Shown here one piece after another: positions 18,396 to 63,778 of a stretch of DNA of 64,000 nt; the stretch's first letter is position 1; each line of letters starts with the position of its first letter. The stretch spans positions 48,923,293 to 48,987,292 of the forward strand of contig OZ024927.1 of NCBI GenBank assembly GCA_964017235.1. The letters run 5' to 3'. The DNA is from Sabellastarte sp. h YS-2021 (taxonomy: Eukaryota > Annelida > Polychaeta > Sabellida > Sabellidae). The position numbers and the translations under genes are program-made. A model generated the notes under the pieces. The model saw nothing but the letters and a program-made list of their open reading frames with translations, searched no databases and was not told where the DNA came from.

Positions 18396-18397
18396 TT

Positions 18398-18424
18398 ATA
18401 TCCCCAGACGAAAGTCGGGGATAT
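18398..18424 (+). repeat. 5' terminal hairpin of element copy 1
   Basis: ATATCCCCAGAC, a GAAA loop and GTCGGGGATAT form a stem of 11 pairs with one bulged A. The left arm (18398-18409) is repeated exactly in inverted orientation near the 3' end at 21644-21655. The first one or two bases may belong to the target. The same hairpin is at 37739-37765 in copy 2. Confidence 0.8.
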
Positions 18425-18442
18425 ATTGGATTCAGGTCCGTC

Positions 18443-18444
<2 letters not shown>

Positions 18445-18493
<49 letters not shown>
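18445..18493 (+). repeat. (GCC)16 trinucleotide tract
   Basis: Forty-nine bases of pure GCC repeat lie 20 bases inside the 5' hairpin. The tract at 37786-37834 in copy 2 has exactly the same length, which argues that the two copies separated recently, because such tracts change length quickly. Confidence 0.95.
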
Positions 18494-18494
<1 letters not shown>

Positions 18495-18639
18495 AGAAAT
18501 TTCCTTGTGGACGCGATAACTCAAAAACAAATTAATATTTTTTTTTCAAACTTGGTACACATGTTAAGGGTGCCCAAAGGAAGATCCCTATTTTAAGGTG
18601 ACCTTAAACTCCCAGTAAAAAAGAACTTATGGCCACCTT

Positions 18640-20470
18640 AAGGTCAGAAATTGGACTTTTGGCCACTTAGAGCCCTGTAGGTCACAAACTATGATGCTCA
18701 GCTGGCTGAAATTTTACCTGACAACACATTAATATGTTCTTAGTACATGTGCCGAAAATCACGACTTTAAGTTGAGGAGAAAATTGTGTTTGAGGCCCAT
18801 AAATACCCCCACTTGGGGATTTTTTGCTATACTTTTCACATATTTTGCCCTATAATTTGGAAGTGGTAATTCTGATGAGTCTCAAACTGCGCTAGGTATA
18901 ACTTTGATATGTAATCCTTGTCTGTAGAAAATTTTAGGGCTGTAGGTTTACCCAAAGGGGTCGACTTAAGGTCTCAAAAGTGCCCACAGAGACCCAATTT
19001 ATGCACTTTTTGCCACTTTCAAGCACTGTAGCTTTCAAACTATGTCTCTCATCTAAGTTAAATATCATCTGGGAATATATCTATGTGTTTTCTTATATGT
19101 GCCCCAACATTTAGGCCTTTAATAGACAGTTAACCTGTGTATCAGGACCATAAACACTCACCCGAGTGACCCTTATAAGACATTTTTCACATCTTTTTCC
19201 CTGTAACTTGGAAATGGTAAGTCTGAGAAGTTTCAAACTGTATTAGATATATATTCTGTGTGTAATCTTAGTATGTAACAGATTTTAAGTCTGAAGCTTT
19301 AATTTTGAAGGTCAAATTGAGGTCTCTAAAAGGCTCCCAAAGACCCAATATTTGGACTTTTTGCTACTTTTAAGCCCTGTGACTGTCAAACTATGTGACT
19401 GATAGAGCTCAAATCCTATCTGGGAAGATATTAGTATGTTATTTATATATGTGCCAAAAATTAAGGCTTTAAGAAGACATTTAACCTGTGTATGAGGACC
19501 ATAAATCCCCACCCGAGTGACCATTTTTAGACATTTTTCACATATTTTGCCCTGTAACTTGGAAATGGTAAGTCTAAGAAGTTTCAAACTGTATTAGATG
19601 CATATTCTATGTGTAATCTTAGTATGTGACAAATTTTAAGTCTGAGGCTTTAATTTGAAGGCCACATTTAGGTCTCTAGAAGGCCCCATAAAGACCCAGT
19701 ATTTGGACTTTTTGCCAATTTTAAGGCCTGTGACTGTTAAACTATGTGACTGATAGAGCTGAAATCTCATCTGGGAATACATTATTATGTTCTTTTTACA
19801 TGTGCCAAAAATCAAGGCTTCAAGTAGACATTTAACCTGTGTATGAGGACCTTAAACACCCACCTGAGTGACCCTTTTAAGACATTTTTCACATATTTTG
19901 CTCTGTAACTTGGAAATGGTAAGTCTGAGAAGTTTCAAACTTTATTAGATACATATTCTATGTGTAATCTTAGTATGTAACAAATTTTAAGTCTGAAGCT
20001 TTAATTTGAAAGCCACATCGAGATCTCTAAAAGGCCCACAGAGACCCAATATTTGGACTTTTTAACCACCTTTAAGCCCTGTGACTGTTAAACTATGTGA
20101 TTGATGGAGCTGAAATCCCATCTGGGAATGCATTATTATGTCCTTTTTACATATGCCGAAAATCAAGGTTTTTAGTAGACATTTAACCTGTGTATGAGGG
20201 CCATAGACACTCGCCCAAGTGCCTTTTTGGACATTTTTTCCGTATTTTGCCCTGTTATTTGGAAATGCTTAGTGTGACAAGTCTTAAACTGTATTATATA
20301 TAATTTTTGTTTGTTATGTATGTCCCCCAAAAAGTTTCAGATCTGTTGTTTAATTGCTAAGGTCTCTTTAACAATTGTAAAATGCCCACAGAAACCCAAT
20401 TTATGGACATTATGCCACTTTAAAGCCCAGTAACTGTCAAACTATGTGGGTTATAGAGCTGAAATCTTTG
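18640..20470 (+). repeat. Internal tandem array, about 353-bp units
   Basis: About five diverged units can be followed by the recurring phrase GACCCAATATTTGGAC and relatives at about 18980, 19335, 19690, 20040 and 20395, giving a spacing of 351-354 bp. Each unit also carries a 'CCTGTAACTTGGAAATGG' phrase and a 'CTGTGACTGTCAAACTATG' phrase. The last unit is the part still recognisable in the old copy at 30815. Minus-strand reading frames of about 91 codons here are not conserved between units and are not taken as genes. Confidence 0.85.
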
Positions 20471-21643
20471 AATTTTTAAAAGGAAATGCCTGTCTATTTC
20501 AATTTTGAATATTAATAATGTTATGGCTATCTTAGTCTTTTAAGAACTTATTTTTGTGTGTTATACCTCTGCTTGCTGAGTTTTTAACTTTTTAAAATGA
20601 AACTGGTTAAACATATTCAAGTAGACAAAATGGACACTTTAAGTGAGCTTTAAGTCCCAATATTAATGAAATTATATCCTTATGTAGTAAAAGTAGGGGA
20701 TTTTTAACCCTCAACTAGCCCAGTTTTATTCAACTTGCCTCAGTTAATTTTGACACAGCTCCTACAGTTATGAACTCATTTCAGTTGATAATCACATACT
20801 TAAAATTCTCAATTCTTTTTGTATTTGAGTACCCCTTTTATATAGATTGTTTGTTTACCATTTATGCATCCCCCACCCGGATTCCCCCCACCCACCTCTG
20901 GGACCTCCAGCTATATTGAGTGACACTAAATAAACAAAGGTATTTAATGATATCAGATGAGAAACAAAGAACTCAGTGGGGTTGCAGATCTTGTGTAATA
21001 GTGAGAGAGGTGTGGAGAAGGGGAGAGGGGTGGGGGTGGGAGGTGGTGGGCTTCATTACATATAACACAAAGGGGAGTCAGAACTGAGATTGTGTCACAT
21101 ATTTAGGTTGCATATATATGGACCACATATATAGGTATAGAGGAAATGAATAACTGAAAACAATTTGCAAATTCTAAAAATAATATAATAAAATAATAAT
21201 ATAAATAATTTTTTTTAAAATAATATTTTATTTGTGAACAAATATAGAAACAGATATGCGCTTTTGGGATTATGAATTTTAGAATGGACATTGAATCATC
21301 AATCATTTAAATACTTTGAAGGAAGATTGAAAAGTATGATGAGTTGAGTTAAAAATAATATTTTATTTGTCAACAAATATAGAAACAGATATGCTCTTTT
21401 GGGATTATTATTTTAGAATGGACATTCAATCATCAATCATTTAAATACTTTGAAAATAGGTTTAGAGTTATCATTGCAGGAAGATTGAAAATATAATTTG
21501 AGTTATGTATTCGGCGTCTGGGGATACACCATCTTCCTTGGAAGATATAAACAGAGTAGATTGATGTGCTGAAGTTCATATAATAATGGGTAATTATGTT
21601 TTAAAAAATTCCCGATCAAAACCTGTGGCGTGAGTGATGACCT

Positions 21644-21681
21644 GTCTGGGGATATGTTGGCGCCGAGTTGGCCCAATCTAG
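21644..21681 (+). repeat. 3' terminus of element copy 1: inverted arm, hairpin and CTAG
   Basis: GTCTGGGGATAT (21644-21655) is the inverse of the 5' hairpin arm. It is followed by TTGGCGCCGAGTTGGCCCAA (21657-21676), which folds as TTGG, a bulged C, GCC, a GAGTT loop, GGC and CCAA. Then comes TCTAG, and the satellite resumes with TTATC. A short 3' hairpin a few bases before a terminal CTAG is a Helitron/Helentron trait. The same block is at 40994-41031 and, degenerate, at about 33643-33680. Confidence 0.8.
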
Positions 21682-24020
21682 TTATCTGTAAAAGTATTGC
21701 AGATAGCCAATTTTTCTCAAATAACCCATTCATCTACTTTTGGGAGAGCTTTCACTTGAAGTGTCAGACCTGTAGCTAATTTCTCACCTACTCAAAATGA
21801 GTAAATGCTAAATATCTCTAAAAGTATTGCAGATAGCCAATTTTTCTCAAATAACTCATTCATTTACTTTTGGAAGAGCTTTCACATGGTGAAGTTTCAG
21901 ACCCATAGCTAATTACTCGCCTACTCAAAATGAGTAAATGCGAATTATCTCTAAAAGTATTGCAGATAGCCAATTTTTCTGAAATAACTCATTCATCTAC
22001 TTTTGGAAGAGCTTTCACATGGTGAAGTTTCAGACCCATAGCTAATTACTCACCTACTCAAAATGAGTAAATGCGAATTCTCTCTAAAAGTATTGCAGAT
22101 AGCCAATTTTTCTCAAATAACTCATTCATCTACTTTTGGGAGAGCTTTCACTTGGTGAAGTTTCAGACCCGTAGGTAATTACTCACCTACTCAAAATGAG
22201 TAAATGCGAATTATCTCTAAAAGAATTGCAGATACACAATTTTTCTCAAATAAGTCATTCATCTACTTTTGGGAGAGCTTTCACTTGGTGAAGTTTCACG
22301 CCCGTAGCTAATTACTCACCTACTCAAAATGAGTAAATGCAAATTATCTCTAGAAGTATTGCAGATAGCCAATTTTTCTCAAATAACTCATTCATCTACT
22401 TTTGGAAGAGCTTTCACATGGTGAAGTTTCAGACCCATAGCTAATTACTCACCTACTCAAAATGAGTAAATGCGAATTCTCTCTAAAAGTATTGCAGATA
22501 GCCAATTTTTCTCAAATAACTCATTCATCTACTTTTGGGAGAGCTTTCACTTGGTGAAGTTTCAGACCCGTAGGTAATTACTCACCTACTCAAAATGAGT
22601 AAATGCGAATTATCTCTAAAAGAATTGCAGATACACAATTTTTCTCAAATAAGTCATTCATCTACTTTTGGGAGAGCTTTCACTTGGTGAAGTTTCACGC
22701 CCGTAGCTAATTACTCACCTACTCAAAATGAGTAAATGCAAATTATCTCTAAAAGTATTGCAGATAGCCAATTTTTCTCAAATAACTCATTCATCTACTT
22801 TTGGAAGAGCTTTCACATGGTGAAGTTTCAGACCCATAGCTAATTTCTCACCTACTCAAAATGAGTAAATGCGAATTATCTCTAAAAGTATAGGAGATAG
22901 CCAATTTTTCTCAAATAACTCATTCATCTACTTTTGGGAAAGCTTTCACTTGGTGAAGTTTCAGACCTGTAGCTAATTTCTCACCTACTCAAAATGAGTA
23001 AATACTAATTATCTCTAAAAATATTGCAGATAGCCAATTTCTCTCAATAACTCATTCATCTTCTTTTGGAAGAGCTTTCACATGGCAAAGTTTCAGACCC
23101 ATAGGTAATAACTCACCTACTCAAAATGAGTAAATGCGAATTATCTCTAAGAGTATTGCATATAGCCTATTTTTCTCAAATAACTCATTCACCTACTTTT
23201 GGGAGAGCTTTCACATGGTGAAGTTTCAGACCTGTAGCTAATTACTCACCTACTCAAAGTGAGTAACTGTGAATTATCTCTAAAAGTATTGCAGCTAGCC
23301 AATTTTTCTCAAATAACTCATTCATGTACTTTTAGGAGAGCTTTCACTTGGTGAAGTTTCAGACCTGTAGCTAATTACTCACCTACTCAAAATGAGTAAA
23401 TGCGAATTATCTCTGAAAGTATTGCAGATAGTCAATTTTTCTCAAATAACTCATTCATCTACTTTTGGAAGAGCTGTCACATGGTGAAGTTTCAGACCCA
23501 TAGCTAATTACTCACTTACTCAAAATGAGTAAATGAGAATTATCTCTAAAAGTATTGCAGATAGCCAATTTTTCTCAAATAACTCATTCATCTACTTTTG
23601 AAAGAGCTTTCACATGGTGAAGTTTCAGACCCGTAGGTAATTACTCACCTACTCAAAATGAGTAAATGCTAATTATCTCTAAAAGTATTGTGGGTACCCA
23701 ATTTTTATCAAATAACTCATTCATCTACTTTTGGAAGAGCTTTCACATGGTGAAGTTCCAAACCTGTAGGTAATTACTCATCTACTCAAATGAGTAAATG
23801 CGAATTATCTCGAAAAGTATTGCAGATAGCCAGTATTTTTCAAATAACTCACTTCACCTATATTTTGGGAGAACTTTCAATTAGTGAATTTTCAGATCCA
23901 TATCTAATTACTCACCTACTCAAAATGAGTAATTGCCTATTATCAGTAAAAGTATTGCAGATAGCCTGTATTTCTCAAATAACTCATTCACCTACATTTT
24001 GGAGATATTTCACATGCTAA
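21682..24020. repeat. 133-bp satellite, continuation after the insertion
   Basis: The array resumes in the same monomer that was broken at 18396 and in the expected order (the TCTGTAAAAG monomer, then the CACTTGAAGTG monomer). Near 23065 one monomer is missing relative to 9560-9692, because the CTCTCAATAAC monomer runs directly into the CATGGCAAAG monomer; unequal exchange would explain it. From about 23640 substitutions and small indels accumulate, and by 24000 the monomers are barely recognisable, so this is the true right edge. A 76-codon reading frame at 23790-24020 simply reads through two decayed monomers. Confidence 0.93.
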
Positions 24021-24282
24021 AGTTTTTTTATGAATTATTAAAATAATTTTTAATGCATTAAAATTAATGAAATCATGCAGTAAATCGATTATAACTTGAA
24101 AAGTATTGTATTTAGAGCATTTTGTTAAAATATGTTATTCACCTACTTTTTCCCACAGCAACAACATGGTGAGTAACTTGGGTGTCTATCTCAATAGATA
24201 AGTGAGTAATAGCTACTTTTGGATTTTTCACTAACTACCATCATGAGTGAAATCACTTGTAACTTGAAAACTATTGCATTTA
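24021..24282. repeat. Decayed, chimeric junction between two satellites
   Basis: Two diverged monomers can be seen, marked by AACTTGAAAAGTATTG at about 24093 and AACTTGAAAACTATTG at about 24253, 160 bases apart. Their first part resembles the 133-bp monomer (CACCTACTTTT and ACATGGTGAGTAA are recognisable). The second one passes straight into the GGGTAGTACAA phrase of the 151-bp satellite. The stretch therefore links the two repeat types. Confidence 0.6.
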
Positions 24283-25245
24283 GACCTTCAGGGTAGTACA
24301 AAAGTGTCCTATGCAAAGGGGAAAGATTTCAATTTTCGCCACTTTTGGCGGCCATCTTGGATTTTAGCGGAAAAAAATGAAAAAGTGTGAATATCTCGAA
24401 AACCATAAGAGATAGAGCGATTTCGAGCGAATTTTTGACCTGCAAGGTAGTACAAGAATGTCCTGTGCAAAAGGGTAAAATTTCAATTTTCACCACTTTT
24501 GGCAGCCATCTTGGATTTTTGCGGAAAATGGAAAAGTGTGAATATCTCTAAAACCGTAAGAGATAGAGCGATTTCAAGCGAATTTTTGACCAGAAGGGTA
24601 GCACAAGAGTGTCCTGTGCAAAGGGGAAAAATATCGATTTTCGCCACTTTTGGCGGCCATTTTGGATTTTTGCGGAAAATAGAAAAGTGTCAATATCTCG
24701 AAAACCGTAAGAGATAGAGCGATTTCGAGCAAATTTTTGACCTGCAGGGTGGTACAAGAGTCTCCTGTGCAAAGGGGGAAAATTTCAATTTTCACCACTT
24801 TTGGCGGCCATCTTAGATTTTTGCGGAAAATGAAAAAGTGTCAATATCTCAAAAACCGTAATAGATCGAGCGATTTCGAGCGAATTTTTGACCCGCAGGG
24901 TGATACAAGAGTGTTCTGTCCAAAGGGGAAAAATTTCATTTTTCGCCACTTTCGGCGGCCATCTTGGATTTTTGCTGAAAATGAAAAAGTGTCAATATCT
25001 CAAAAACCGTAAGAGATCGAGCGATTTCGAGCGAATTTTTGACCCACAGGGTGATACAAGAGTGTCCTGTCCAAAGGGGAAAAATTTCATTTTTCGCCAC
25101 TTTCGGCGGCCATCTTGGATTTTTGCTGAAAATGGAAAAGTGTCAATATCTCAAAAAGCGTAACAGATAGAGCGATTTCAAGCGAATTTTCGACCTGCAG
25201 GATGGTACAACAGTGTCCTATGCAAAGGGGAAAAATTTCAATGTA
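24283..25245. repeat. 151-bp satellite, about 6.4 copies
   Basis: The phrase ATATCTC followed by AAAA recurs at 24391, 24542, 24693, 24844, 24995 and 25146, exactly 151 bases apart. Each unit also contains GGTACAAGAGTGTCCTGT, a CACTTTTGGCGGCCATCTTG box and GAGATAGAGCGATTTC. Units are 85-95% alike by eye. The array stops abruptly at about 25245. Open frames of 70-90 codons on both strands come from the repeat period (151 is not a multiple of three) and are not taken as genes. Confidence 0.93.
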
Positions 25246-26844
25246 GTATTTCTTCCCCTGCGGTACTCGGCGGGAGATACATACCGCGGCAGTGGTCTTG
25301 TTTTCTGCTAAATTTATAATTTATCAGATGAAGCTCTATGCCATAGTGATGTAATTATTACTTTGACAAGAAATATACATGGATTTGCAAAGTCAAAGTT
25401 CAAAGTTGGGGTGTTACATCCCGTTCAACAGCCAGGGTCATATTAGGACAGGTTCTAAGTATTGCCACTTATGAGACTCGAACCCAAAGAGGTGACAGAG
25501 TTTGATTACATGCAAACTTTCTTGTCACTAGGTCACTTGAGGATCTCATACATTTGCCTATGCACACTTTGACATAACATAATGTTGAGTGCATACATCT
25601 GGAGAATAAAGCATGTGTACATGTGGTGTCAAAGGCCTGGTCTCATGTGGGTAAGCTGTTAGTTGTTAGGCTTTTGTTGCCAGTTTAAAGTTCATAACCT
25701 TGACCAACAATATGTATGGGTTTCCTCCAGCTGTGTGTCATAATATCTCCAATAAGGGACTAGGTGTAGTGTGAAACACATTAATACTCCCTGTGTCCAA
25801 TGGTCTACACAGGAGGTGACCTTGCAAGGTCATATTGATAAACCAAATCATTTCAACTTTATGCCAATAACAATATGATTGAGTCACAAAGATTTCATCT
25901 GCATGTGTTTAGGTGACTATTGGAATGGGTTTGACATAATAATATGTACTTTTTAGTACAAATCTCCCTTGTTTAAGATGAGGTCACAAGTACTAGTACT
26001 TGAGACTGTAATTTCCTCATTAGTTAATCAGATGTGGCACCTTCCATATGATTCTGTAAAGTTTCCATTAAAGGTTAAGTTATATTCAGCGGTACATTGC
26101 TTCTACATTTAAAGGGCAACATGGAACTTTGTGCCTTTTCACACCAAATACCATGCTGTCATGGCATGACCTAAGTGGATTTCTTTGCAAGATCTCTGGA
26201 AACCACGCATTTCCTGTGCTCTGGTGGTGCACATTCTTCTAAAGTTTTAATGGATCTGTGAGAAAGTCTCATCCTGCCAGTGGATGTGTGTCTTGCCTGC
26301 TTTCACCTTTCATATTCTGGATGTTCAGGAGATAGAATTTTTAGTATGACCTTAGGATATTTATTAATAAAAAACTCTTTACAGGTTCACTATAATTGGT
26401 TCCCTCACTTTGATTTTTTTCATAGTCAAAAGTAGCTGCCTATATAACAACTTACATACCTGAAATGCATTGGTTAAACTCTATTTCTAGAAACATTTGC
26501 AGTAGTTCCTGCAACTGGAATCATTATTTGTAATGTCTGCTTAAGTTACCATGAGGTTACCTCCTAACTTTTGTCCAATAAGAGGCAGGTTCCATCAGTG
26601 CCTTGTAGGTATTGCCATATTACAATTTGGCATTGGTTTACAGACACCAACCATTTACGTAAATTACCCTACAAATGTCATTAATTTTAATCAACATAAT
26701 ATAACCTTTCAGTCATCATTTTAATAAAGCCAATTATGTTCATGAAACTGTGGAACTTTGAATAATGAGGGCAATTGGTATTTGTTCATGTAACTGCCAA
26801 TAAATGACACACTAGGGTAATCACTCATAGGCTTGGAAACTGAA
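25246..26844. other. Spacer with one SINE, no gene seen
   Basis: Apart from the minus-strand SINE at about 25375-25575 and a weak SINE-like phrase (GGTTTCCTCCAG near 25723), this stretch shows no coding exon, RNA gene or clear repeat. I looked for the missing first exon of SPCS3 here and did not find it. Confidence 0.6.
25375..25575 (-). mobile_element. tRNA-derived SINE
   Basis: Read on the minus strand, a B-box-like GGGTTCGAGTCTC lies near 25495-25483. It is followed by CCTGTCCTAATATGACCCTGG and a tail ending CGGGATGTAACACCCC. The same tail type (GACGTTAAACCC or GACGTAAAACCCC) occurs in two more copies in this window (42425-42575 and 51880-52052). This arrangement is that of the tRNA-derived SINEs common in bivalves and other molluscs. 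The A box is weak and the ends are approximate. Confidence 0.6.
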
Positions 26845-29234
26845 TAATTAAGCGTCCCTGAAAGGGCGCTTATTTGTTTTCGCCTCAGTTTCCTCGCCGC
26901 CGCCGCATTATGGTCTTCCTTGAATATCTCCCTGATTATTAGAAGGTTTCAAACCATATTTGGCAGTTATATACCTTAGGCGTGGGAAAATTTTTCTGCA
27001 TGCTTAAATTTGACCTTTATGAAAGTCACATGATCAAAAACAATTTTTTGAAGTACACCCCCCCCCCCCATCATCGCGGTTCAGGAAAAACTACTTACTA
27101 CAGAGCCTTTTAATTTGACACACGTGTTTATACTATCGAAAACGCAAGCTGATTAGATTTTGGGAGCAATCCCTTGAAAAATGTCTCATTTAGGAGTGAT
27201 TTTCTGACCCCTTCCAATCTGAAAGCCTTAAATTTAGGCCAATCCCCTATTATCTTCTTAAGTATTGCATTTAGAGCTATAAAATGTACTGGGAGGTAAT
27301 AGGGAACCATATGTGGAGAGTCTAAATAGCCGGTCAGTTTTACCCCACGGCCCCCCCTTATGGGTTAACCTGGGGTCATAAAATAGCTGATTTTGAGTTT
27401 TTGCCTTATGTCTCCTTTATTGTTGCTTTTATAGCTTCAGAATGTATTAAGAGGTATTGGGAAAGCATATATGGAGAGTCTAAATAGCTGGTCAGTTTTA
27501 CCCCCCGACCCCCCCTTATGGGTCAAACTGGGGTCATAAAATAGCCGATTTTGAGTTTTTGCCTTTATCTCCTTTATTGTTGCTTTTATGGCTTCAGAAT
27601 ATATTAAGAGGTATTGGGAAAGCATATGTGGAGAGTCTAAATAGCCGGTCAGTTTTACCCCCTGCCCCCCCCCCCCCCTTATGGGTCAAACTGGGGTCAT
27701 AAAATAGCTGATTTTGAGTTTTTGCCTTATATCTCCTTTATCTTTGCTTTTATAGCTTCAGAATGTATTAAGAGGTCTTGAGAAAGAATATGTGGAGAGT
27801 CTAAATAGCCGGTCAGTTTTACCCCCTGACCCCCCCTTATGGGCCAAACTGGAGTCATAAATAGCTGCTTTGGAGTTTTTGCCTTATATCTCCTTTATCT
27901 TTGCTTTTATAGCTTCAGAATGTATTAAGAGGTATTGGGAAAGCATATGTGGAGAATCTAAATAGCCGGTCAGTTTTATCCCCCGACCCCCCTTTATGGG
28001 TCAAACTGGGGTCATAAAATAGCTGATTTTGAGTTTTTGCCTTATATCTCCTTTATTGTTGCTTTTATAGCTTCAGAATGTATTAAGAGGTATTGGGAAA
28101 GCATATATGGGGAGTCTAAATAGCCGGTCAGTTTTACCCCCGACCCCCCCTTATGGGTCAAACTGAGGTTATAAAATAGCCGATTTTGAGTTTTTCCCTT
28201 TATCTCCTTTATTGTTGCTTTTATAGCTTCAGAATATATTAAAAGGTATTGGGAAAGCATATGTAGAGAGTCTAAATAGCCGGTCAGTTTTACCCCCCGA
28301 CCCCCCCTTATGGGCCAAACTGGGGTCATAAATAGCTGCTTGGAGTTTTTGCCTTATATCTCCTTTATTGTTGCTTTTATAGCTTCAGAATGTATTAAGA
28401 GGTATTGGGAAAGCATATGTGGAGAATCTAAATAGCCGGTCAGTTTTATCCGCCAACCCCCCCTTATGGGTCAAACTGGGGTCATAAAATAGTTCCTTTA
28501 GAGTCTAAATAGCCGGTTAGTTTTACCCCCCGCCCCCCCCCCCCCTTATGGGTCAAACTGGGGTCATAAAATAGCTGATTTTGAGTTTTTGCCTTATATC
28601 TCCTTTATCTTTGCTTTTATAGCTTCAGAATGTATTAAGAGGTCTTGAGAAAGAATATGTGGAGAGTCTAAATAGCCGGTCAGTTTTACCCCCTGACCCC
28701 CCCCTTATGGGCCAAACTGGAGTCATAAATAGCTGCTTTGGAGTTTTTGCCTTATATCTCCTTTATCTTTGCTTTTATAGCTTCAGAATGTATTAAGAGG
28801 TATTGGGAAAGCATATGTGGAGAATCTAAATAGCCGGTCAGTTTTATCCCCTGACCCCCCTTTATGGGTCAAACTGGGGTCATAAAATAGTTGCTTTGGA
28901 GTTTTGCCTTATATCTCCTTTATTGTTGCTTTTAGACCTTGAGAATGTATTAAGAGGTATTGGGAAAGCATATGTGGAGAGTCTAAATAGCCAGTCAGTT
29001 TTCCCCCGACCCTCCCTTATGGGCCAAACTGGGGTCATAAATAGCTGCTTTGGAGTTTTTGCCTTATATCTCCTTTATTGTTGCTTTTATAGCTTCAGAA
29101 TGTATTAAGAGGTATTGGGAAATCATACGGTGCAGCTTTGTGCATTCTTAGCTTTACAGCATGCTTATTAAAACCACAAAGCATTTTAAACTTTAAGGGA
29201 CGCTTCGCTTTTGTTAGCAAAAGCATTCCTCTAG
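26845..29234 (+). mobile_element. Second Helentron-associated-like element, with 157-bp array
   Basis: The left end is TAATTAAGCGTCCCT; AAGCGTCCCT, a GAA loop and AGGGCGCTT fold into a hairpin (26850-26871). A short GCC tract follows at 26896-26907, then about 250 bases of unique sequence, then about eleven 157-bp units. Near the right end AGGGACGCTT (29196-29205) is the exact inverse of the hairpin arm. GCTTTTGTTAGCAAAAGC (29207-29224) forms a perfect 7-bp hairpin, and six bases later CTAG (29231-29234) is followed by TT. The order of parts is the same as in the element at 18399 although the sequences are unrelated. No protein is encoded. Boundaries are inferred from structure, since no empty site is available. 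Confidence 0.65.
27300..29128 (+). repeat. 157-bp tandem array inside the second element
   Basis: The phrase TCTAAATAGCCGG, or a close variant, starts at 27321, 27479, 27636, 27800, 27957, 28115, 28271, 28427, 28504 (truncated unit), 28667, 28825 and 28982. Each unit has a C-rich run (5-13 C in a row) before TTATGGG and a CCTTATATCTCCTTTATTG phrase. The unit around 27800 and the unit around 28667 share private changes (GGTCTTGAGAAAGAATATG), so a block of 867 bp was duplicated within the array. A more diverged first unit lies at about 27140-27300. Open frames here, such as 28042-28329 on the minus strand, are repeat artefacts. Confidence 0.92.
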
Positions 29235-32960: not shown

Positions 32961-33283
32961 TATAAGTGTACAGTATCTACCATATTAAAGGTCAGCTTCT
33001 TATTATATTATCGAATTTTAATTATGTAATGTTACAATGTAATAATATTCTCAATGACTGTTGGACTTTCTTGAAACTTTTTTTGTGTATATGCATTCTT
33101 CATTGCAAAGGTTTTGGCCACCTGGTATTTTTATTGTTTCCATTTTGCAGTACTATATTAAATCTATGAACAGTGAATTAAATGCTAATGAAATCAACTT
33201 GCATACTTTATATGGTGCAACTTTACTTCAGTTAATGTTTACCTCTTTCAACACTATATATATTGAGTAGTTATCTAAATGGA

Positions 33284-33321
33284 GTATTGATTGATTGAAT
33301 GATTGATTGATTGATTGATAA
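33284..33321 (+). repeat. (GATT)n microsatellite
   Basis: GATTGATTGAATGATTGATT and continuation form a short tetranucleotide tract. It may be the 3' tail of a decayed LINE, since the LINE at 63690 ends in the same motif, but no LINE body is visible upstream. Confidence 0.8.
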
Positions 33322-33680
33322 AAAATGAAAATGTATATGTGGTTAGAAAAATTTCTGTTGTGGGTGAACATCCTACCCTGTCAGATTGTTGTGGGCAAAG
33401 TTCCTTGTGGGCAAAGTGCCTGTGGATAGAGTTTGTATTGGGCAAAGTTCTTGTGGGCAAAGTTCCTGGATGCTCATCAGTCGTCTGGGGATACCATTTT
33501 GCCTACAAAATAAAAATATTGTAGATTGAATTACTCAAGTTCTTATATAAGTGGTTGATTATGTTTTCCCTCAAAATTATATCACACAAGAGGGGTCCCA
33601 TAAAAAATACCCAGTCAAAACATGTTGCGTGAGTGATGACCTGTCTTGGGATATGTTGGGGCCGAGTTGGCCCAATCTAG

Positions 33681-35611: not shown

Positions 35612-35766
35612 TATGATGTGCTACAACTTTATGATTATTATTAAGAACTCTTGCTGATTAATACAACTATATACAAAATTTTTTTATAATATTTTTTCCA
35701 GAAAAAATGTGTCAGAATACAGCACAGGAAAGGAGAAAAATTACCTTAGATTTATAAAAATTTGAT
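35612..35766 (+). pseudogene. Dead duplicate of the first visible SPCS3 exon
   Basis: About 156 bases (intron plus exon) are tandemly duplicated. 35612-35766 corresponds to 35767-35922, matched by GATGTGCTA, CTTTATGATTATTAT and ATACAAAAT. The exon part starts at 35702 after TTTTTTCCAG. It reads [13 protein letters not shown], then YLRFIKI and a stop, whereas the working copy continues [11 protein letters not shown]. It has no 5' splice site at the right place, so it is a decayed pseudo-exon. It keeps a good acceptor. Confidence 0.8.
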
Positions 35767-35857
35767 CTTGATGTGCTAAAACTTTATGATTATTATTTAG
35801 AACTCTTGCTGGTTGACATAAATATATACAAAATCTTTTTATTGTATTTTTTCCTAG

Positions 35858-35931
35858 AAAAAATGTTCCAGATTACAGCACAGGAAAGGAGAAAAATGAC
35901 CTTGGATTTATAACATTTGATCTCAAGACAG
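35858..35931 (+). CDS. SPCS3: SPCS3 exon, residues about 48-73
   Basis: The acceptor is TTTTTTCCTAG and the donor is GACAG|GTAACT. The exon is 74 nt long: one base completes a codon from the preceding unseen exon, 24 codons follow, and one base is left over. It encodes [20 protein letters not shown] and DLKT. A decayed tandem copy lies 156 bases upstream. Confidence 0.93.
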
Positions 35932-37783
35932 GTAACTGATCATTATTACATCTTTTGATCACTATTTAATAAATTAATATCTTTTGATCACTATTTAATA
36001 AATTAATATCCAACATCTTTTTGTTCTCATCTTGTGTGAAATAACAAGCATCTTATGAAATATTCTGAACTATTTAAAAACTGTTTTCAAAATATAGGAT
36101 TAGTGTTGTCAAGATTGTTCTTTCTCGATTTCTTATAAAATTTTCGGGGATCACATTCATAACTAGGTCTCATCGATAATAAATTTTGTTTAAATTAAAA
36201 AAAAAAATTTTTCAACTTTTTACTAAAGAACATACTAACTTCATCTGAAGTACTGAGTTGTTCTCTGCTTATTATCAGAGTACAAGGTTTTCTTTGCAAA
36301 CTGTAGCAAATTATGGTAGATTACTAAGATTAGGCTTTTCCAGATTGATTAACAAATATTTGTATTTCTTTTAGATTTAGAACCAATTTTTAACTGGAAC
36401 GTGAAGCAGCTATTTCTATATTTGACAGCAGAATACGAAACTGAAAACAATGTAAGTTTAAGTCACTAATATATTTTATGTAATCAACCTTTGTAAATGT
36501 TGATTAGGCTATGTATGGTAGCTAGTACCTTACTTAAAGTTGAGCAAAAGCTGATTTTCTAAAATCTTGGTTGCTGTTATTCTTGGGAGAGATATTGACA
36601 AAATTTTATTATAAGCAAATTAAGCTTTTGCTGAATGCTGAGAGTGTTGATTTGTTGTTTCAGTTTATAAAAGGTGTTTGTACAAGGTTACATGGTACTG
36701 GAAGATCATTGTTGTGTCATGGGCACTGGTACCTTGGCCATTTAAAAATGCCCTATAGGGCACAGGACTACAGTTTTGCCTTAGTCTGCAAATTAGTACT
36801 AGTTTCTGAATTAACTCAGGCTGGACATGTAAATATTTACAATGCATATAAATATTTTGACAGTTTTTATACAAAATATTTATAGATGGAGTGATTGCAG
36901 TTATCTATAGATTGAATAAATTAATTCAAATAATTTATGTTTATTCATATTAGAACAGTCGGTGACCACAAACAAAACTGACAAGGTGTGCTCTATTATA
37001 TATTATTATATTACAACAGAAAGTGAATCAGGTTGTTTTGTGGGATAAAATAGTCCTCAGAGGAGAAAATGTGAACCTGGATTTCAAGAGTATGAACACA
37101 AAGTACTACTTCTGGGATGATGGTAATGGACTGAGGTATGTATCACGAGAAGTTGTGTCTTTACATTCACTCTTTGTATTATGCTCCTCAATGTCCACCT
37201 GATTCACACTTTTCTCTTTCACAAGGCAGTGCAATTTGATGTACCAGAGGCTGATGGACATTATGTCATGTCTTAGGAAGTTACATCTAATAAATATCAA
37301 GAAAGATGTTACAGTACTAACAAATGACTCATCAACTCTGTTTTCTATATTAAGACAAAATAAAAGTTAGGTGTTTTACATGTGTATTCAAACAACAAAC
37401 AAAGCTTTGCACTCTCTGATGTCACAAGTATCTGTCAATGACGTTACATCAACCCAATACAAAGCACCACTCATTAACCTCACCAGGAGGCTATGTTTTT
37501 GGGTGTGTTGTCTGTCTGTATGGCTGCATTCACAATACATCCAAAATGGATGGACAAGTATTTCTCAAATGTTTTTTGTAGGTAGAGTGTCACCAAAAGG
37601 AAGAAGTGATCAAATTTTGGAGAAGATCCAGATCATATTCTGAATACAAATAAAAAAACTAAATTTTTAGAAACACCACAACCCCCCACCCCCACCCCCA
37701 CCCCCATGAAGGTCTGTGCTGTAGAGTGCTGTCTAATTATATCCCCAGACGAAAGTCGGGGATATATTGGATTCAGGTCCGTC

Positions 37784-37835
<52 letters not shown>

Positions 37836-40800
37836 AGAAATTTCCTTGTGGACGCGATAACTCAAAAACAAATTAATATTTTTTTTTCAAACTTGGTACA
37901 CATGTTAAGGGTGCCCAAAGGAAGATCCCTATTTTAAGGTGACCTTAAACTCCCAGTAAAAAAGAACTTATGGCCACCTTAAGGTCAGAAATTGCACTTT
38001 TGGCCACTTAGAGCCCTGTAGGTCACAAACTATGATGCTCAGCTGGCTGAAATTTTACCTGACAACACATTAATATGTTCTTAGTACATGTGCCGAAAAT
38101 CATGACTTTAAGTTGAGGAGAAAATTGTGTTTGAGGCCCATAAATACCCCCACTTAGGGATTTTTTGCTATACTTTACACATATTTTGCCCTATAATTTG
38201 GAAGTGATAATTCTGATGAGTCTCAAACTGCGCTAGGTATAACTTTGATATGTAATCCTTGTCTGTAGAAAATTTTAGGGCTGTAGGTTTACCCAAAGGG
38301 GTCGACTTAAGGTCTCAAAAGTGCCCACAGAGACCCAATTTATGCACTTTTTGCCACTTTCAAGCACTGTAGCTTTCAAACTATGTCTCTCATCTAAGTT
38401 AAATATCATCTGGGAATATATCTATGTGTTTTCTTATATGTGCCCCAACATTTAGGCCTTTAATAGACAGTTAACCTGTGTATCAGGACCATAAACACCC
38501 ACCCGAGTGACCCTTATAAGACATTTTTCACATCTTTTTCCCTGTAACTTGGAAATGGTAAGTCTGAGAAGTTTCAAACTGTATTAGATATATATTCTGT
38601 GTGTAATCTTAGTATGTAACAGATTTTAAGTCTGAAGCTTTAATTTTGAAGGTCAAATTGAGGTCTCTAAAAGGCTCCCAAAGACCCAATATTTGGACTT
38701 TTTGCTACTTTTAAGCCCTGTGACTGTCAAACTATGTGACTGATAGAGCTCAAATCCTATCTGAGAAGATATTAGTATGTTATTTTTATATGTGCCAAAA
38801 ATTAAGGCTTTAAGAAGACATTTAACCTATGTATGAGGACCATAAATCCCCACCCGAGTGACCATTTTTAGACATTTTTCACATATTTTTCCCTGTAACT
38901 TGGAAATGGTAAGTCTAAGAAGTTTCAAACTGTATTAGATGCATATTCTATGTGTAATCTTAGTATGTGACAAATTTTAAGTCTGAAGCTTTAATTTGAA
39001 GGCTACATTTAGGTCTCTAGAAGGCCCCATAAAGACCCAATATTTGGACTTTTTGCCAATTTTAAGGCCTGTGACTGTTAAACTATGTGACTGATAGAGC
39101 TGAAATCTCATCTGGGAATACATTATTATGTTCTTTTTACATGTGCCAAAAATCAAGGCTTCAAGTAGACATTTAACCTGTGTATGAGGACCTTAAACAC
39201 CCACCTGAGTGACCCTTTTAAGACATTTTTCACATATTTTGCTCTGTAACTTGGAAATGGTAAGTCTGAGAAGTTTCAAACTTTATTAGATACATATTCT
39301 ATGTGTAATCTTAGTATGTAACAAATTTTAAGTCTGAAGCTTTAATTTGAAAGCCACATCGAGATCTCTAAAAGGCCCACAATGACCCAATATTTGGACT
39401 TTTTACCACCTTTAAGCCCTGTAACTGTTAAACTATGTGATTGATGGAGCTGAAATCCCATCTGGGAATGCATTATTATGTCCTTTTTACATATGCCGAA
39501 AATCAAGGTTTTTAGTAGACATTTAACCTGTGTATGAGGGCCATAGACACTTGCCCAAGTGCCTTTTTTGACATTTTTTCCGTATTTTGCCCTGTTATTT
39601 GGAAATGCTTAGTGTGACAAGTCTTAAACTGTATTATATATAATTTTTGTTTGTTATGTATGTCCCCCAAAAAGTTTCAGATCTGTAGTTTAATTGCTAA
39701 GGTCTCTTTAACAATTGTAAAATGCCCACAGAAACCCAATTTATGGATATTATGCCACTTTAAAGCCCAGTAACTGTCAAACGATGTGGGGTATAGAGCT
39801 GAAATCTTTGAATTTTTAAAAGGAAATGCCTGTCTATTTAAATTTTGAATATTAATAATGTTATGGCTATCTTAGTCTTTTAAGAACTTATTTTTGTGTG
39901 TTATACCTCTGCTTGCTGAGTTTTTCACTTTTTAAAATGAAACTGGTTAAACATATTCAAGTAGACAAAATGGACACTTTAAGTGAGCTTTAAGTCCCAA
40001 TATTAATGAAATTATATCCTTATGTAGTAAAACTAGGGGATTTTTAACCCTCAACTAGCCCAGTTTTATTCAACTTGCCTCAGTTAATTTTGGCACAGCT
40101 CCTACAGTTATGAACTCATTTCAGTTGATAATCACATACTTAAAATTCTCAATTCTTTTTGTTTTTGAGTACCCCTTTTATATAGATTGTTTGTTTACCA
40201 TTTATGCTCAACCCACATCCCCCACCCGGATTCCCCCCACCCACCTCTGGGACCTCCAGCTATATTGAGTGACACTAAATAAACAATGGTATTTAATGAT
40301 ATCAGATGAGAAACAAAGAACTCAATGGGGTTGCAGATCTTGTGTAATAGTGAGAGAGGTGTGGAGAAGGGGAGAGGGGTGGGGGTGGGAGGTGGTGGGC
40401 TTCATTACATATAACACAAAGGGGAGTCAGAACTGAGATTGTGTCACATATTTAGGTTGCATATATATGGACCACATATATAGGTATAGAGGAAATGAAT
40501 AACTGAAAACAATTTGCAAATTCTAAAAATAATATAATAAAATAATAATATAAACAATTTTTTTTTAAATAATATTTTATTTGTGAACAAATATAGAAAC
40601 AGATATGCGCTTTTGGGATTATGAATTTTAGAATGGACATTGAATCATCAATCATTTAAATACTTTGAAGGAAGATTGAAAAATATGATGAGTTGAGTTA
40701 AAAATAATATTTTATTTGTCAACAAATATAGAAACAGATATGCTCTTTTGGGATTATTATTTTAGAATGGACATTCAATCATCAATCATTTAAATACTTT

Positions 40801-41701
40801 GAAAATAGGTTTAGAGTTATCATTGCAGGAAGATTGAAAATATAATTTGAGTTATGTATTCGGCGTCTGGGGATACACCATCTTCCTTGGGGAGATATAA
40901 ACAGAGTAGATTGATGTGCTGAAGTTCATATAATAATGGGTAATTATGTTTTAAAAAATTTCCGATCAAAACCTGTGGCGTGAGTGATGACCTGTCTGGG
41001 GATATGTTGGCGCCGAGTTGGCCCAATCTAGTTAATTATTTGCCTCAAATAGAATATACCCAGGTTCTATTCCCCTATACTGAACTTGACTATGTGTCTA
41101 TTATCATTAGAAATACAAATTTTGTTCCCGAACTTTTTTTGAGAAAATTTAACCATTTTTATCAACAACTAGTTGACATTATATGTGACCATTATGACAT
41201 GAACACCAGTCTAGAATGTTGTGGACTGTTTAGAAAATCATTATGTCCTCATAAAAAAAGGACTTTATGAAAATGTAGATAACAAGTTATTCCATGTTAA
41301 ATCGGCTGTTGTGAGCGCCTATTGTATAGTAAATGTATTATACATTTATACAGATAATAATAAGAGAGAAGTATTCTTGTTACATGGTTTGCAAATGACT
41401 ATCTGTGTGTGTGAAATTTGCCACTTACTGTATTTCAATGTATTTTTAAGATGACAAGTGAATAGACATACGAGTTTGTGAAACATGAAAATTGCATTAC
41501 ATCCTCAATACAAGTAAACATTGCGTTGCAATGAAGCAACATTTGAATAAAAACTCCTGTGTATTTTTCAGAGCCAACCCAAATGTGACCTTGACATTAT
41601 CGTGGAATGTCATTCCCAATGCAGGCACTTTACCAAGGGTACAAGGAAGTGGCTCACATAAATTTGAATTCCCAACAGAATACCACAGCAGTAGATTTTA
41701 A
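35858..41701 (+). CDS. SPCS3: Signal peptidase complex subunit 3 (3' four coding exons)
   Basis: Four exons with consensus splice sites and matching phases join into 131 residues, equivalent to about residues 49-180 of the 180-residue animal protein: 35858-35931, 36375-36451, 37020-37135 and 41572-41701 (TAA at 41699-41701). Recognisable stretches are [71 protein letters not shown] and [18 protein letters not shown], the last with the conserved NVT glycosylation sequon. SPCS3 is the single-pass luminal subunit of the endoplasmic reticulum signal peptidase, which removes signal peptides. The exon(s) for the N-terminal membrane anchor are not visible in the window. Either they lie upstream of the satellite, making an intron of more than 35 kb, or they were missed. 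The last intron (37136-41571) holds a 3.3-kb mobile element. No frame-disrupting change is seen in these exons. Confidence 0.95.
36375..36451 (+). CDS. SPCS3: SPCS3 exon, residues about 73-98
   Basis: The acceptor is TTTCTTTTAG and the donor is AACAAT|GTAAGT. The 77-nt exon encodes [20 protein letters not shown] and YETENN, in phase with its neighbours. Confidence 0.94.
37020..37135 (+). CDS. SPCS3: SPCS3 exon, residues about 99-137
   Basis: The acceptor is TTACAACAG and the donor is CTGAG|GTATGT. The 116-nt exon encodes [20 protein letters not shown], then [19 protein letters not shown], with the arginine codon split across the next intron. Confidence 0.95.
37480..37645 (+). mobile_element. 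Fragment of a dispersed repeat (CCAGGAGG type)
   Basis: CACCAGGAGGCTATGTTTTT, then GTCTGTCTGTATGG, then CAAAAGGAAGAAGTGATCAA and ATTTTGG lead to GATCCAGATCATATTCTG. The same order is seen at 57557-57700. From memory this is part of a widely dispersed non-coding family in marine animals; I cannot confirm its class. Confidence 0.5.
37681..37706 (+). repeat. C-rich simple repeat
   Basis: CCCCCACCCCCACCCCCA-type tract just before the element insertion at 37740. The minus strand is G-rich and could form a quadruplex. Confidence 0.7.
37740..41031 (+). mobile_element. Helentron-associated-like element, copy 2, in the last SPCS3 intron
   Basis: This 3292-bp copy has the same parts as the element at 18399: 5' hairpin 37739-37765, (GCC)16 at 37786-37834, 353-bp units, inverted arm 40994-41005, 3' hairpin 41007-41026 and CTAG 41028-41031. 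Only scattered substitutions and a 12-base insertion (CTCAACCCACAT type, near 40207) separate them; by eye the copies are 98-99% identical. Flanks are TCTAATTA on the left and TTAATTATTTG on the right, again consistent with a TTA duplication or a T|T insertion. It is in the sense orientation of the host gene. Confidence 0.8.
41572..41701 (+). CDS. SPCS3: SPCS3 last coding exon
   Basis: The acceptor is GTATTTTTCAG. The exon completes the split arginine codon and encodes [20 protein letters not shown], then [20 protein letters not shown] and RF, followed by TAA. An open frame that starts at 41492 is only the intron read-in. Confidence 0.95.
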
Positions 41702-42424
41702 TAGACTGTTTTAATTCTCTTTCAATTCTAACTGATTTCATAATTGTACTGAAGGTAATATTTGCTTAGATGTTGTCAGTTTGACTTTGATGATTTGATA
41801 ACATTCCCTGTTTTGTTAAAGGTGGAAGAATTTCAGCTGTAGTTTCTGTGTTGATGGCATTTTATAAATGTATATTGTTTCCCACAATTCTGACATGGCC
41901 CAGTTTACGGTAGCTCAGCTATTACTTTACTACATGTACATGATACATTTAAACCAGTATGGTAAACAAGTTGTTTAAATATATAATGACTGCATTTGAT
42001 CATTTTATAAGTTCGTAACAAGTAACCCAAATAAAATGGTTGAACATGTAATCTGAGAAATCTTGTTTTTGAAGTTATTGACTTATTCACATAAGTCTGT
42101 TTTAATTTACTAGAGATTATTTTTCCCCTCTTTCTTAAAAAGGTTAGCAGTACAGTGTGAAATGTGTTTTAGATCTGTGTGTTAAGTACTAGTAGATATA
42201 TTAGTTTCTTGTGTATAAGGTAAAGAAATATGTGTTCAACTTCTTGATGAAGTAACTCATTAACTATGTCCAAAAAAATATAATCAAACTACCAATCACC
42301 GCTTATCTGGTTAGTTTTGTTGCGTAAAATGTGTAATAAGGCAGTTTTCCTAGCCACATCTTAGTGTTTCATACAGACACTTGATGAATAATGGTGATGC
42401 AGAACTGTCATTCATTAGTATACA
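41702..42424 (+). other. SPCS3 3' untranslated region and spacer
   Basis: Sequence after the SPCS3 stop is AT-rich, with a candidate polyadenylation signal AATAAA at 42030-42035 and a later one at 42686-42691. The true 3' end cannot be decided from sequence alone. No other gene is seen. Confidence 0.5.
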
Positions 42425-42575
42425 GCTGAGTGCCTTAAAGTAAATCTCGGTATAAGTTAAAGGCGGGTCAATCACAGGTTATGGGTTCAACTCCCTCAAG
42501 TGGTGATGTTGATGGCCTGTCGAAATATGATGCTGGTTGTTAAAGGACGTTAAACCCGAACTTTGACCTATATAT
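42425..42575 (+). mobile_element. tRNA-derived SINE
   Basis: A B-box-like ATGGGTTCAACTCCC lies near 42481. It is followed by GGCCTGTCGAAATATGATGC and a tail GTTGTTAAAGGACGTTAAACCC. The tail matches the other two SINE copies of the window. The 5' end is indistinct. Confidence 0.65.
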
Positions 42576-42820
42576 GTTTCATACTTCTGAATAGAAGACT
42601 GTAATTTATACTTGCAAACCATTCATTTTCACCTTTATCTACTTGTGAAGTTTGTATCACTTTGAACTTTATCACATTAGTGTATAATAAATTTGTGAAT
42701 ATAATCTAGGAAACAGATTTTGTTAAAGAAATATGATTCTTAAGATGAAAGGATTAAAAAAATCAACAAATATTTAAATAAAACAATTAGCAACAAAATT
42801 AGCATGCTTAGTATTGTTTC

Positions 42821-44120
42821 TAACCCCAGCCTTTATGGCCCATACAGGCTGGGGTTATAGTCGCCCCCTGCACTGTCCTGGTGGTGGCGGTGGGCATAAA
42901 GTTTGTGGGTGTTCCACAGCCTAATTCCATATTTGGATTTTCACCAAATTTACAGGATATGTTTAACGTAAGAGGATCTAGAGCCGATTAGGTTTTGACA
43001 GGTATCTGGCAACAACTGTTGCCAAGGCAACACTTTTAAGGTGTTAAAGATTGTACTACTACTAGGTGCTCTAAAGCCTAAACCCATGCATGGATTTTTA
43101 CCATATTTTCAGCATATTTAAAGCCCAAGAGGATCTAGATCTGATTAAATTGTGGGGGGTATTGGGCAACATCTGTTGCCGTGGCAATACTTTTGAGATT
43201 TTTGGATCTTAAAGTTTGTGGGTGTTCCACAGCCTAAACCCATGCATGGATTTTCGCCAAATTTTCGGGTTATGTTTACCCAAGATGATCTAAAGCTGAT
43301 TAGGTTTTGGCAATGTGAGGCAATGCTTTAAATACTTTTCAGTCATAAACTTCTTAATTAAAAAGGGGGCATTATTAAACTGGTATTACTACAGTTGCAT
43401 TTTTATGTCCTACTGGCCAAAGGCCAAAGTTAGGTGATTATGAAATTACTTCCATACATCTGTGTGTGTATGTGCGAACATGTGTGTCCGTCAAGTTTTG
43501 ACTTAAACCTGTACATCTCATTTATTCATGAAGATATCTTCACCAAATTGGCAGAGAATGTTTATGCCAGTGAAAACATGTCTAAAATAATTAGTTTGTT
43601 CTAAAACTTAAAATATTGCAGATAGCCCCATCATGTTTGCACAAAATATATTTGGCTAGGAAAGCTTGCCAGAGAGTAATTTTGGCCTTCTTTTAAAATC
43701 AAAATTGCTGCCATGTCATATGAAAAATGCCTAATATCACCCTTACAATTGGTCCTACGGGTTCGGAATTAGAAAACAACTTGTTAGAAATCATATCCTG
43801 TGAATCTTTTGCAAGTGTCAAATTTGACCTTGGATCCATTCTTCAAGGTCAAGTGGAGTCATCATGTTAAAACAGCCATAGTTCTCTTATATATTGGTCC
43901 TTGGGCTTGGAAACTCACACAATGAAAAAAATAAAATGTGTAACTTTTAACCTGTCTTCATCTACATGAAAGTTCTTATATTTGACAACATCTCGTAGGT
44001 TCTGTATACATCTTCAACCGAAGTTGTTCTTTAGATTATCCCAAATCTCAATGTTGTTGCCCATTTAGTTGTACCTGCAGGATAGGGTTCTTGCCTGCTG
44101 AGGCTGGCTATTTTTATGTC
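42821..44120 (+). mobile_element. Third repeat-bearing element with 5' hairpin
   Basis: TAACCCCAGCC (42821-42831) and GGCTGGGGTTA (42847-42857) form an 11-bp hairpin. A GGTGGTGGCGGTGGG tract follows at about 42880. Next come about 2.5 units of about 157 bp starting with AAGTTTGTGGGTGTTCCACAG (42897, 43056 degenerate, 43207), then another block with ATATTGCAGATAGCC at 43611. Near the right end, GGATAGGGTT (44080-44089) is a degraded inverse of the hairpin arm; the second copy at 63779-64000 keeps it intact. The end falls at about GGCTATTTTTAT, where the two copies diverge. No protein is encoded. It might be two adjacent elements rather than one. Confidence 0.5.
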
Positions 44121-59241: not shown

Positions 59242-59278
<37 letters not shown>

Positions 59279-63690: not shown

Positions 63691-63778
63691 AATGTAACAT
63701 TCCTGGAATAATATGGTAATACACAATGCTTACAAAAAATGTTTTTTCTCAAGACTGTTGACAAAGTAATTCAGTTAT

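Follow-up and report, generated by a model that had tools for sequence, protein, structure and literature searches.

Probable Helentron-associated elements, one of them satellite-bearing, in a 64-kb window of a Sabellastarte genome

The window, i.e. the whole 64,000-nucleotide stretch of Sabellastarte DNA analysed here, contains two copies of a HINE, family (a), located on the forward strand at 18397..21681 and 37738..41031 and 98.6% identical to each other in the window comparison. Copy 1 lies inside a 133-bp tandem array and has the ends found in 21/21 two-ended copies; copy 2 has the same ends, with T on its left and TT on its right. The 5' hairpin, whose stems are TATATCCCC and GGGGATATA, is accompanied by a (CGC)16.7 microsatellite and 351-bp tandem units, as determined by TRF. 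The 5' arm recurs in inverted orientation near the 3' end over 12 exact bases, against at most 9 in 200 shuffles, starting 38 nt from the element end, within the HINE range of 38-60 bp. The 3' hairpin is bulged, its longest exact stem being 4 bp and folding giving 8 pairs with one bulge, and the terminus is CTAG, with TT outside. A preliminary description had given the same hairpin-to-CTAG extent, but with the first base of each copy two positions further inside. A diverged, 5'-truncated relative occupies 30818..33680 (+), with 89% identity to (a) over 415 bp in its initial part and 90% over 84 bp in its final part, where the (a)-type CTAG is followed by GT, not TT.

Genome copies were used to define the ends of the family. 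A 40-bp pattern including CTAGTT, with at most 3 mismatches, detects 8,230 (a) 3' ends genome-wide, and its reversed control none. The 21 copies with both ends, comprising the two window copies and 19 of 20 retrieved places (the remaining place had no 5' end where it was expected), invariably show TTA on the left and TT on the right, the base preceding TT being A at 18 sites. Joined flanks, compared with the loci retrieved for this analysis, match uninterrupted DNA for 6 of the 21 pairs, with a gapless junction and no duplication; the identities are 100% for window copy 1 (win1), 97.5% for L043, 93% for L062, 95% for L051, 87% for L055 and about 80% for L049, and the joined flanks of copy 1 are satellite monomers over 80/80 bases. 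A seventh candidate site, L044, was dropped, having matched its own locus. Family (a) targets TT without target duplication. Of the outcomes named beforehand as refuting, those concerning ends and duplications did not occur: the ends fall at the hairpins and at CTAG, and the six joined sites bear no duplication of fixed length.

Family (b), a HINE with a 157-bp core, is located at 26846..29234 (+) and features a 5' hairpin, a short GCC tract and a CTAG end followed by TT. Its inverted 3' arm, of 10 bases (shuffle maximum 8), starts 39 nt from the end. The 7-bp 3' hairpin, originally reported for both families, is exact in (b) and does not hold as such for (a). The ends were taken from the genome, using 20 copies for the 5' end and 20 other copies for the 3' end. 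Exact 5' ends number 737, for a pattern excluding G at five flank places; TT follows the 3' end in 20/20 copies, a count which is biased, since the query extended 6 bases into the flank.

A relative of (b) lacking the 3' part, family (d), is found at 58505..59959 (-), with units of roughly 270-330 bp, a poly-C tract and a 5' end only; no 3' arm above shuffles was found in the window copy. Its first 20 bases are 95% identical to those of (b), and one stretch of its array matches the (b) leader (z = 11.7). The elements, initially regarded as unrelated, cannot all be so, because the 5' module of (d) is also that of (b). A comparison of 91 core pairs, with 60 shuffles per pair and control sequences reaching z 2.8, gave high values for the array edge against itself (13.7), for (d) against the (b) leader, and for short motifs (up to 6.1); the likeness of (b) and (d) units depends on the poly-C run, and a common ancestor of all cores is not claimed.

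Family (c), HINE-like and apparently older, extends over 42821..44111 (+), starting with a T-run and a AACCCCAGCC hairpin of 12 bp and ending near CTAT. Its units, of about 157 bp, are diverged (73% over 248 bp), its GCC tract is irregular and its 3' palindrome measures 5 bp only; the 3' arm in this copy, 7 bases against a shuffle maximum of 8, is not above shuffles. A 3' fragment of a second element of this type, at 63777..63997 (-), matches at 87% over 145 bp and carries a longer 3' arm, AGGCTGGGGTT. The 3' limit was set from these two window copies alone. The left arm is present in 17/20 fetched copies, with TT immediately before it in 16 of the 17, TT being known for the 5' side only. Other copies, among the matches listed from 1,759 first-look candidates, are 80-88% identical.

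The Helentron-like build initially proposed for all these elements is found in full in (a) and (b), partly in (c) and least in (d), where it is limited to the 5' end. The inverted arm stands for (a), (b) and the second (c)-type fragment; the GCC-rich tract is CGC in (a), short in (b) and irregular in (c), and the combination of microsatellite and tandem core is weak in both (c) and (d). No stop-to-stop frame of at least 150 aa lies within (a), (b), (c) or (d). A strict window scan for hairpin, inverted arm and end detected no elements, not even (a) and (b), and is no test of these elements, because it demanded identical 9-base arms. Each DNA search listed the best 40 matches among candidates numbering from hundreds to thousands, which biases identities towards young, complete copies.

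The 133-bp array extends over 1..18396 (+; about 138 units by TRF), with the 5' end of the element of which it would be the core lying beyond the window, and resumes past the (a) insertion at 21682..24025 (+; 17.6 units, by TRF and long-range repeat analysis). It contains a long-range repeat of 12,480 bp, 99.4% identical. Next to it are a conserved right-hand module (24026..24278, +), defined on genome copies, a 151-bp array detected by TRF (24279..25242, +), and the terminus ...GGCGGGAGATACATACCGCGGCAGTGGTCTTG, followed by TT (25243..25300, +), where matches share a stop. The module adjoins the 133-bp array at 4 loci (88-92%), and the best 40 of its 1,278 first-look candidates, window included, are all 100% identical over 131 bp. 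A query with the 1.5-kb right end gave 8,251 candidates, of which the best 40 were considered: among these listed matches, 37 of the 39 outside the window stop at 25302-25306, and 37 of the 39 begin in 133-bp units, no more than 3 bases from where the query starts, in a list selected for length. The full left extent of the matches is partly due to this selection, the shared stop being unaffected.

Twenty-four Rep matches were found in the genome, where several Rep lineages coexist, and a PIF1 helicase together with an endonuclease-like end is present at the three loci scanned further (H1, L009 and C7). H1 has an open frame of 2,245 residues with DUF6570, Helitron_like_N, PIF1 and Exo_endo_phos domains, Rep and PIF1 scoring above cut-off. 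Exo_endo_phos falls just below its Pfam cut-off of 24.5 bits (H1 23.6, L009 23.7, C7 21.3), and Exo_endo_phos_2 passes only in L009 (30.0, cut-off 27.4). The H1 element measures 12.27 kb in C3; its copies in C3 and C4 are 98.1-99.5% identical across the three stretches compared, and their ends coincide at the hairpin, at AGGTGGG and at CTCTTG|TT. Its 5' ends occur at 3,774 places genome-wide (control 0). The inverted arms have 8 exact bases in common (shuffle maximum 9) and the 3' hairpin is weak. H1 is the sole Rep lineage with both ends defined; these resemble the passenger ends in build, and its arms are unlike those of (a), (b) and (c).

The search for an autonomous copy yielded genes for Rep, helicase and an endonuclease-like domain, but at none of the 24 Rep places could an autonomous element be established that has the ends of (a), (b) or (c), or a partner with 11 or more arm bases identical to theirs. 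Flanks were seen wide at 10 of the 24 places (five 20-kb stretches, C3, C4 in pieces, and L009, L013 and L016 at 15.6-16.6 kb) and over 1.5 kb at the other 14. A scan for strict arms plus CT(A/T)G detected H1 only, missing (a) and (b) in the window; with looser arms, five matches in C5b and C5_132 were taken for chance. The arm scans are therefore weak evidence of absence. Among the Rep lineages, L009 alone has a 5' module like that of (b); the match is 74% over 90 bp, and the module lies about 220 bp ahead of its first same-strand frame.

The Helentron at C7:89.79M has Herpes_teg_N, Rep, helicase and endonuclease-like frames, the first of which we take to be OTU-like. An (a)-like HINE lies directly upstream on the same strand, with (a)-like pieces 0.4 kb downstream; this locus is a lead for the partner of (a). 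Its own ends were looked for at the locus and not found, and a 95% relative at C5:132.6M is interrupted. Three other associations were rejected: at L012, an apparent union of Rep with (a), (a) sits inserted in an H1 Rep gene; at C3, which resembled a (b) element containing Rep because both a 5' end and an array of (b) type lie upstream of H1, the comparison with C4 shows H1 inserted in a (b)-type array; and at L016 (shared with L010), the Rep gene harbours a (b)-like HINE in opposite orientation.

It had been proposed that one enzyme, itself not seen, apparently moves all the elements. A single enzyme for (a), (b), (c) and the satellite element would account for the similar build, for TT and CT(A/T)G ends, and for the 38 bp of 5' end which (a) shares with an element at L131. 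We nonetheless regard it as unlikely: the subterminal arms differ, families being grouped by at least 11 identical arm bases in the available part of the work on DINE-1 and mite elements (PMC4067079), multiple Rep lineages exist, and H1 has arms of its own. A common enzyme is not supported, since the arms of H1 differ from those of (a), (b) and (c).

The satellites had been suspected to belong with the elements, and the association goes beyond that claim, as the right module and CTTG|TT end recur at 39 other listed places. The last 1.7 units of the 133-bp array, the module, the 151-bp array and CTTG|TT form one block there; the 133-bp 'satellite', the 151-bp array and the end are one dispersed right end. 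At L131, an array of 4.6 units is found past a 5' end resembling that of (a). That the array is an independent classical satellite into which mobile elements merely landed would suit its roughly 156 units here, the plain insertion of (a), and the stand-alone arrays of element-type repeats described in oyster, as far as the accessible text of two reports goes (PMC8268682, PMC12628747). It is quite improbable, given that array edge and terminus travel together in the length-selected list and that the L131 array follows an (a)-like 5' end. The 133-bp array looks like the expanded core of a HINE-like passenger, with (a) inserted into it, and this core, of at least 20.7 kb, looks like a classical satellite.

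The window very probably holds non-autonomous Helentrons (HINEs), namely (a), (b)/(d), (c) and a satellite-bearing fourth element at 1-25300, presumably moved in trans in the manner of Helentrons. This architecture is supported by ends derived from genome copies, by TT insertion of (a) without duplication and by the Helentron-type proteins which the genome encodes. Canonical Helitrons insert at A|T, start with 5' TC, end with 3' CTRR and have no endonuclease. Elements of that class would be compatible with CTAG and with the A before TT at 18/21 (a) sites; they are nevertheless very improbable here, as the left T and right TT are invariant (21/21), as T|T predicts, a 5' hairpin and subterminal inverted arms are present, no 5' TC start is seen, and all three scanned Helentron loci have an endonuclease-like end. 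A DDE transposase moving MITE-like or fold-back elements is hardly credible despite hairpin ends, high copy number and the original classification of bivalve pearl as a MITE, as stated in the consulted portion of PMC7492417. Against it are the six joined sites without target duplication and the position of the 3' arm, which ends 26 to 29 nt short of the terminus, so that the ends do not qualify as terminal inverted repeats.

According to the Helentron-type reading, Rep would nick at the T preceding the 5' hairpin, the helicase would peel off a strand for rolling-circle copying, termination would occur at the 3' hairpin and CT(A/T)G, and the product would be joined into TT. Passengers could be mobilised in trans by autonomous elements having like ends, and the tandem core may lengthen via slippage or repeated rolling-circle copying. 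It is possible, if rather doubtful, that several recent and perhaps active Helentron lineages coexist and that rolling-circle copying makes satellite DNA by lengthening passenger cores, elements grading into satellites which keep the 3' terminator while new passengers enter the T-rich repeats; the array's long-range repeat of 12,480 bp would then have arisen in such copying.

The elements are new members of a build already described, with the same order of parts, for oyster HINEs (PMC7492417) and for fruit-fly DINE-1 and mite elements (PMC4067079); here and below, comparisons refer to the portions of these reports available to us. Cg_HINE of Crassostrea gigas shares the 5' subterminal arm with its inverted partner, the microsatellite, the satellite-like core, the 3' arm and palindrome, the TT preference and the lack of duplication (PMC7492417). 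By description, its cores consist of 140-180 bp repeats in up to 29 units, whereas (a) has 351-bp units and one core here exceeds 20 kb. Bivalve pearl, named in the same source, is alike by description in having conserved ends on either side of central repeats of about 160 bp. DINE-1 and the mite HINE/Helentron pairs are alike, by description, in the arm 38-60 bp from the 3' end, the stem-loop, TT and the Rep/helicase/endonuclease class of the partner, but the partner of (a), (b) and (c) was not found here (PMC4067079). Satellites derived from Helitron or Helentron cores likewise form arrays with element parts on one side (PMC12628747, PMC8268682); in the present case an identical one-sided end recurs at 39 other listed places, along with a 12,480-bp long-range repeat. 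For Cg_HINE no related autonomous element is reported in the text available, and which autonomous elements pair with satellite-bearing HINEs is a question left open by the oyster work (PMC7492417), while in the present genome both ends of H1 are defined and its 5' end occurs at 3,774 places. An open-frame Helentron with defined ends, thousands of its 5' ends and several passenger families are present in one genome; the movers of HINEs and the origin of the satellite are testable in a single species, because H1, passengers and an array with its terminator occur together.

The elements of the window are real, and their typing as Helentron-associated in the preliminary description was right. That description drew on four repeat types with a hairpin at the 5' end, a GCC tract and tandem units, some of them also having an inverted arm and a hairpin ahead of CTAG. 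The genome searched was the window's own (1.79 Gb, 647 contigs), and element ends were taken from copies. Family (a), made up of HINEs (non-autonomous Helentrons), has two window copies, at 18397-21681 and 37738-41031, 98.6% identical across 3.29 kb. A 1,001-bp 5' query retrieved 40 listed places at 96-100% identity, window copy 1 included (the best 40 of 1,804 first-look candidates), and a 172-bp 3' query 40 places, all at 100% (the best 40 of 392). The 3' end, taken as 40 bases including CTAGTT, occurs 8,230 times genome-wide with up to three mismatches, against 0 for the reversed control. For the first 20 places of the listing, the 3' side was fetched and the 5' end sought 3.29 kb away, where it was present in 19. 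In all 21 copies, these 19 and the two of the window, TTA precedes TATCCCC, i.e. a T stands before TATATCCCC, and TT follows the terminal CTAG; the base before the TT target is A in 18, T in two and G in one.

Empty sites were sought by comparing all 21 joined flank pairs with the loci fetched in this analysis. Six match across the junction, gapless there: those of window copy 1 correspond to satellite monomers (80 of 80 bases), those at L043 and L062 match the interiors of other (a) copies, and those at L051, L055 and L049 match at about 80-95%. A match for the L044 flanks was dropped, having fallen on its own locus, and 14 pairs had no match among these fetched loci. Given the six gapless junctions and the fixed T and TT flanks, family (a) therefore targets TT and duplicates nothing.

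The suggested link between the satellites and Helentron-type elements is supported, and is the strongest addition to the original observation. The 133-bp array, a core of about 156 units in the window, forms two blocks (1-18396 and 21682-24025) split by an (a) copy. At four loci (the window, L035, L131 and L133) it ends in one common right module (88-92%); every one of the 40 places listed for this module, window included, has it at 100% identity (the best 40 of 1,278 candidates). A 1,531-bp query, running from the 133-bp array through the 151-bp array to past 25300, gave 39 listed places outside the window with 96-99% identity (the best of 8,251 candidates, hence selected for length); 37 of the 39 start at most 3 bases from the query start, inside 133-bp units, and 37 break off at query positions 1503-1507, where GGTCTTG is followed by TT and a few bases, the remaining two stopping at 1516 and 1441. 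The two arrays and the end thus form a single dispersed right end that bears the TT signature. The 5' end of the satellite-bearing element lies left of the window. At L131, the 133-bp repeat forms 4.6 units on the far side of a second array and of a 5' hairpin, which over 38 bp is related to that of (a) (score 41 versus a maximum of 20 in 200 shuffles); hairpin and arrays are likely one element. Within the window array, 1-5916 repeats at 12481-18396 (99.4%, lag 12,480 bp), both limits being set by the window start and the chosen cut rather than by the true length; weaker lags are 5,311 and 7,169.

Twenty copies other than that of the window gave the 5' end of family (b), a HINE at 26846-29234; each starts with TAATTAAGC. 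Exact 5' ends number 737 genome-wide, by a pattern excluding G at five flank places, and the base preceding TAATT is A, T or C in the listed rows. TT follows the 3' end in 20 of 20 fetched copies, but the query, extending 6 bases into the flank, is biased towards TTG. The element (d), at 58505-59959 on the minus strand, shares its 5' start with (b) (20 bases, 95%) and has an array stretch resembling the (b) leader; it reads as a truncated relative of (b). Family (c), HINE-like and located at 42821-44111, has 39 listed places outside the window (the best of 1,759 candidates); since these are only 80-88% identical, it is an older family. Its arm is carried by 17 of 20 fetched 5' ends and absent in three, and TT directly precedes it in 16 of the 17; the 3' end was defined from two window copies.

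A Rep profile search returned 24 places over the cut-off, 10 viewed with wide flanks and 14 by 1.5 kb. Four are one young autonomous Helentron lineage, H1 (98.9-99.4% over 2.0-3.6 kb), with an open frame of 2,245 residues at C3:168.67M, containing DUF6570, Helitron_like_N and PIF1, plus an Exo_endo_phos match just under cut-off. Between this copy and that at C4:41.57M, similarity starts at a T run before AGGTGGGTTGCGTGTAACCAACCCGCC, continues with a GTCTGTC-type microsatellite and then tandem units, and ends at CGCAACCCGCC...CTCTTG, then TT. This is much the build described for the window elements; the H1 arms have only 8 exact bases in common, and the 3' stem is weak. The claim that the four repeat types share one build holds for (a) and (b), partly for (c), whose inverted 3' arm in the main window copy is no better than shuffles, and least for (d), for which no 3' end was found in the window. 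The H1 5' end, counted by itself, occurs 3,774 times (control 0), whereas Rep matches number 24, an imbalance that passengers would be expected to produce. H1 in C3 lies within a (b)-type array, its rejoined flanks giving a (b)-like unit. Nesting was seen three times: HINEs within Rep genes at L012 (C11:69.2M) and L016 (C2:115.88M), and H1 within a HINE core at C3:168.67M.

Besides H1, the Rep locus L009 has a (b)-like 5' module about 220 bp before its first frame, together with helicase and endonuclease-like domains; its 3' end was looked for and not found. For (a), the sole lead is an ambiguous locus (L039/L040, C7:89,787,500-89,807,499), a Helentron one of whose frames matches Pfam Herpes_teg_N (35.8 bits); the (a)-like HINE beside it has its 3' end twice in tandem, at a spacing of 183 bp. 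A doubled (a)-type 3' end also occurs at C1:37,926,489 (spacing 186 bp), and L040:3085-3700, upstream of the Helentron frames, holds another dispersed repeat, about 158 bp long and in part palindromic. A single enzyme mobilising all families is not supported.

The window also holds a retroelement with reverse transcriptase (44770-50092; PF00078 in 46752-48122), perhaps DIRS-like, whose later long frame, which we take to resemble a tyrosine recombinase, matched no Pfam family. A 669-residue open frame (61532-63541) may encode a non-LTR reverse transcriptase, and a 206-residue frame with an immunoglobulin domain (60627-61247) is perhaps a host gene exon.

The window families are members of an already known kind of element. 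Arm distances, stem-loop, TT and a Rep/helicase/endonuclease partner are given for HINEs in PMC4067079, and PMC8268682 and PMC12628747 describe Helitron-borne satellites as well as one-sided arrays. Oyster HINEs, according to PMC7492417, could be related to no autonomous elements; they have 140-180-bp cores, a TT preference and no duplication, and their parts follow the same order as in the window elements.
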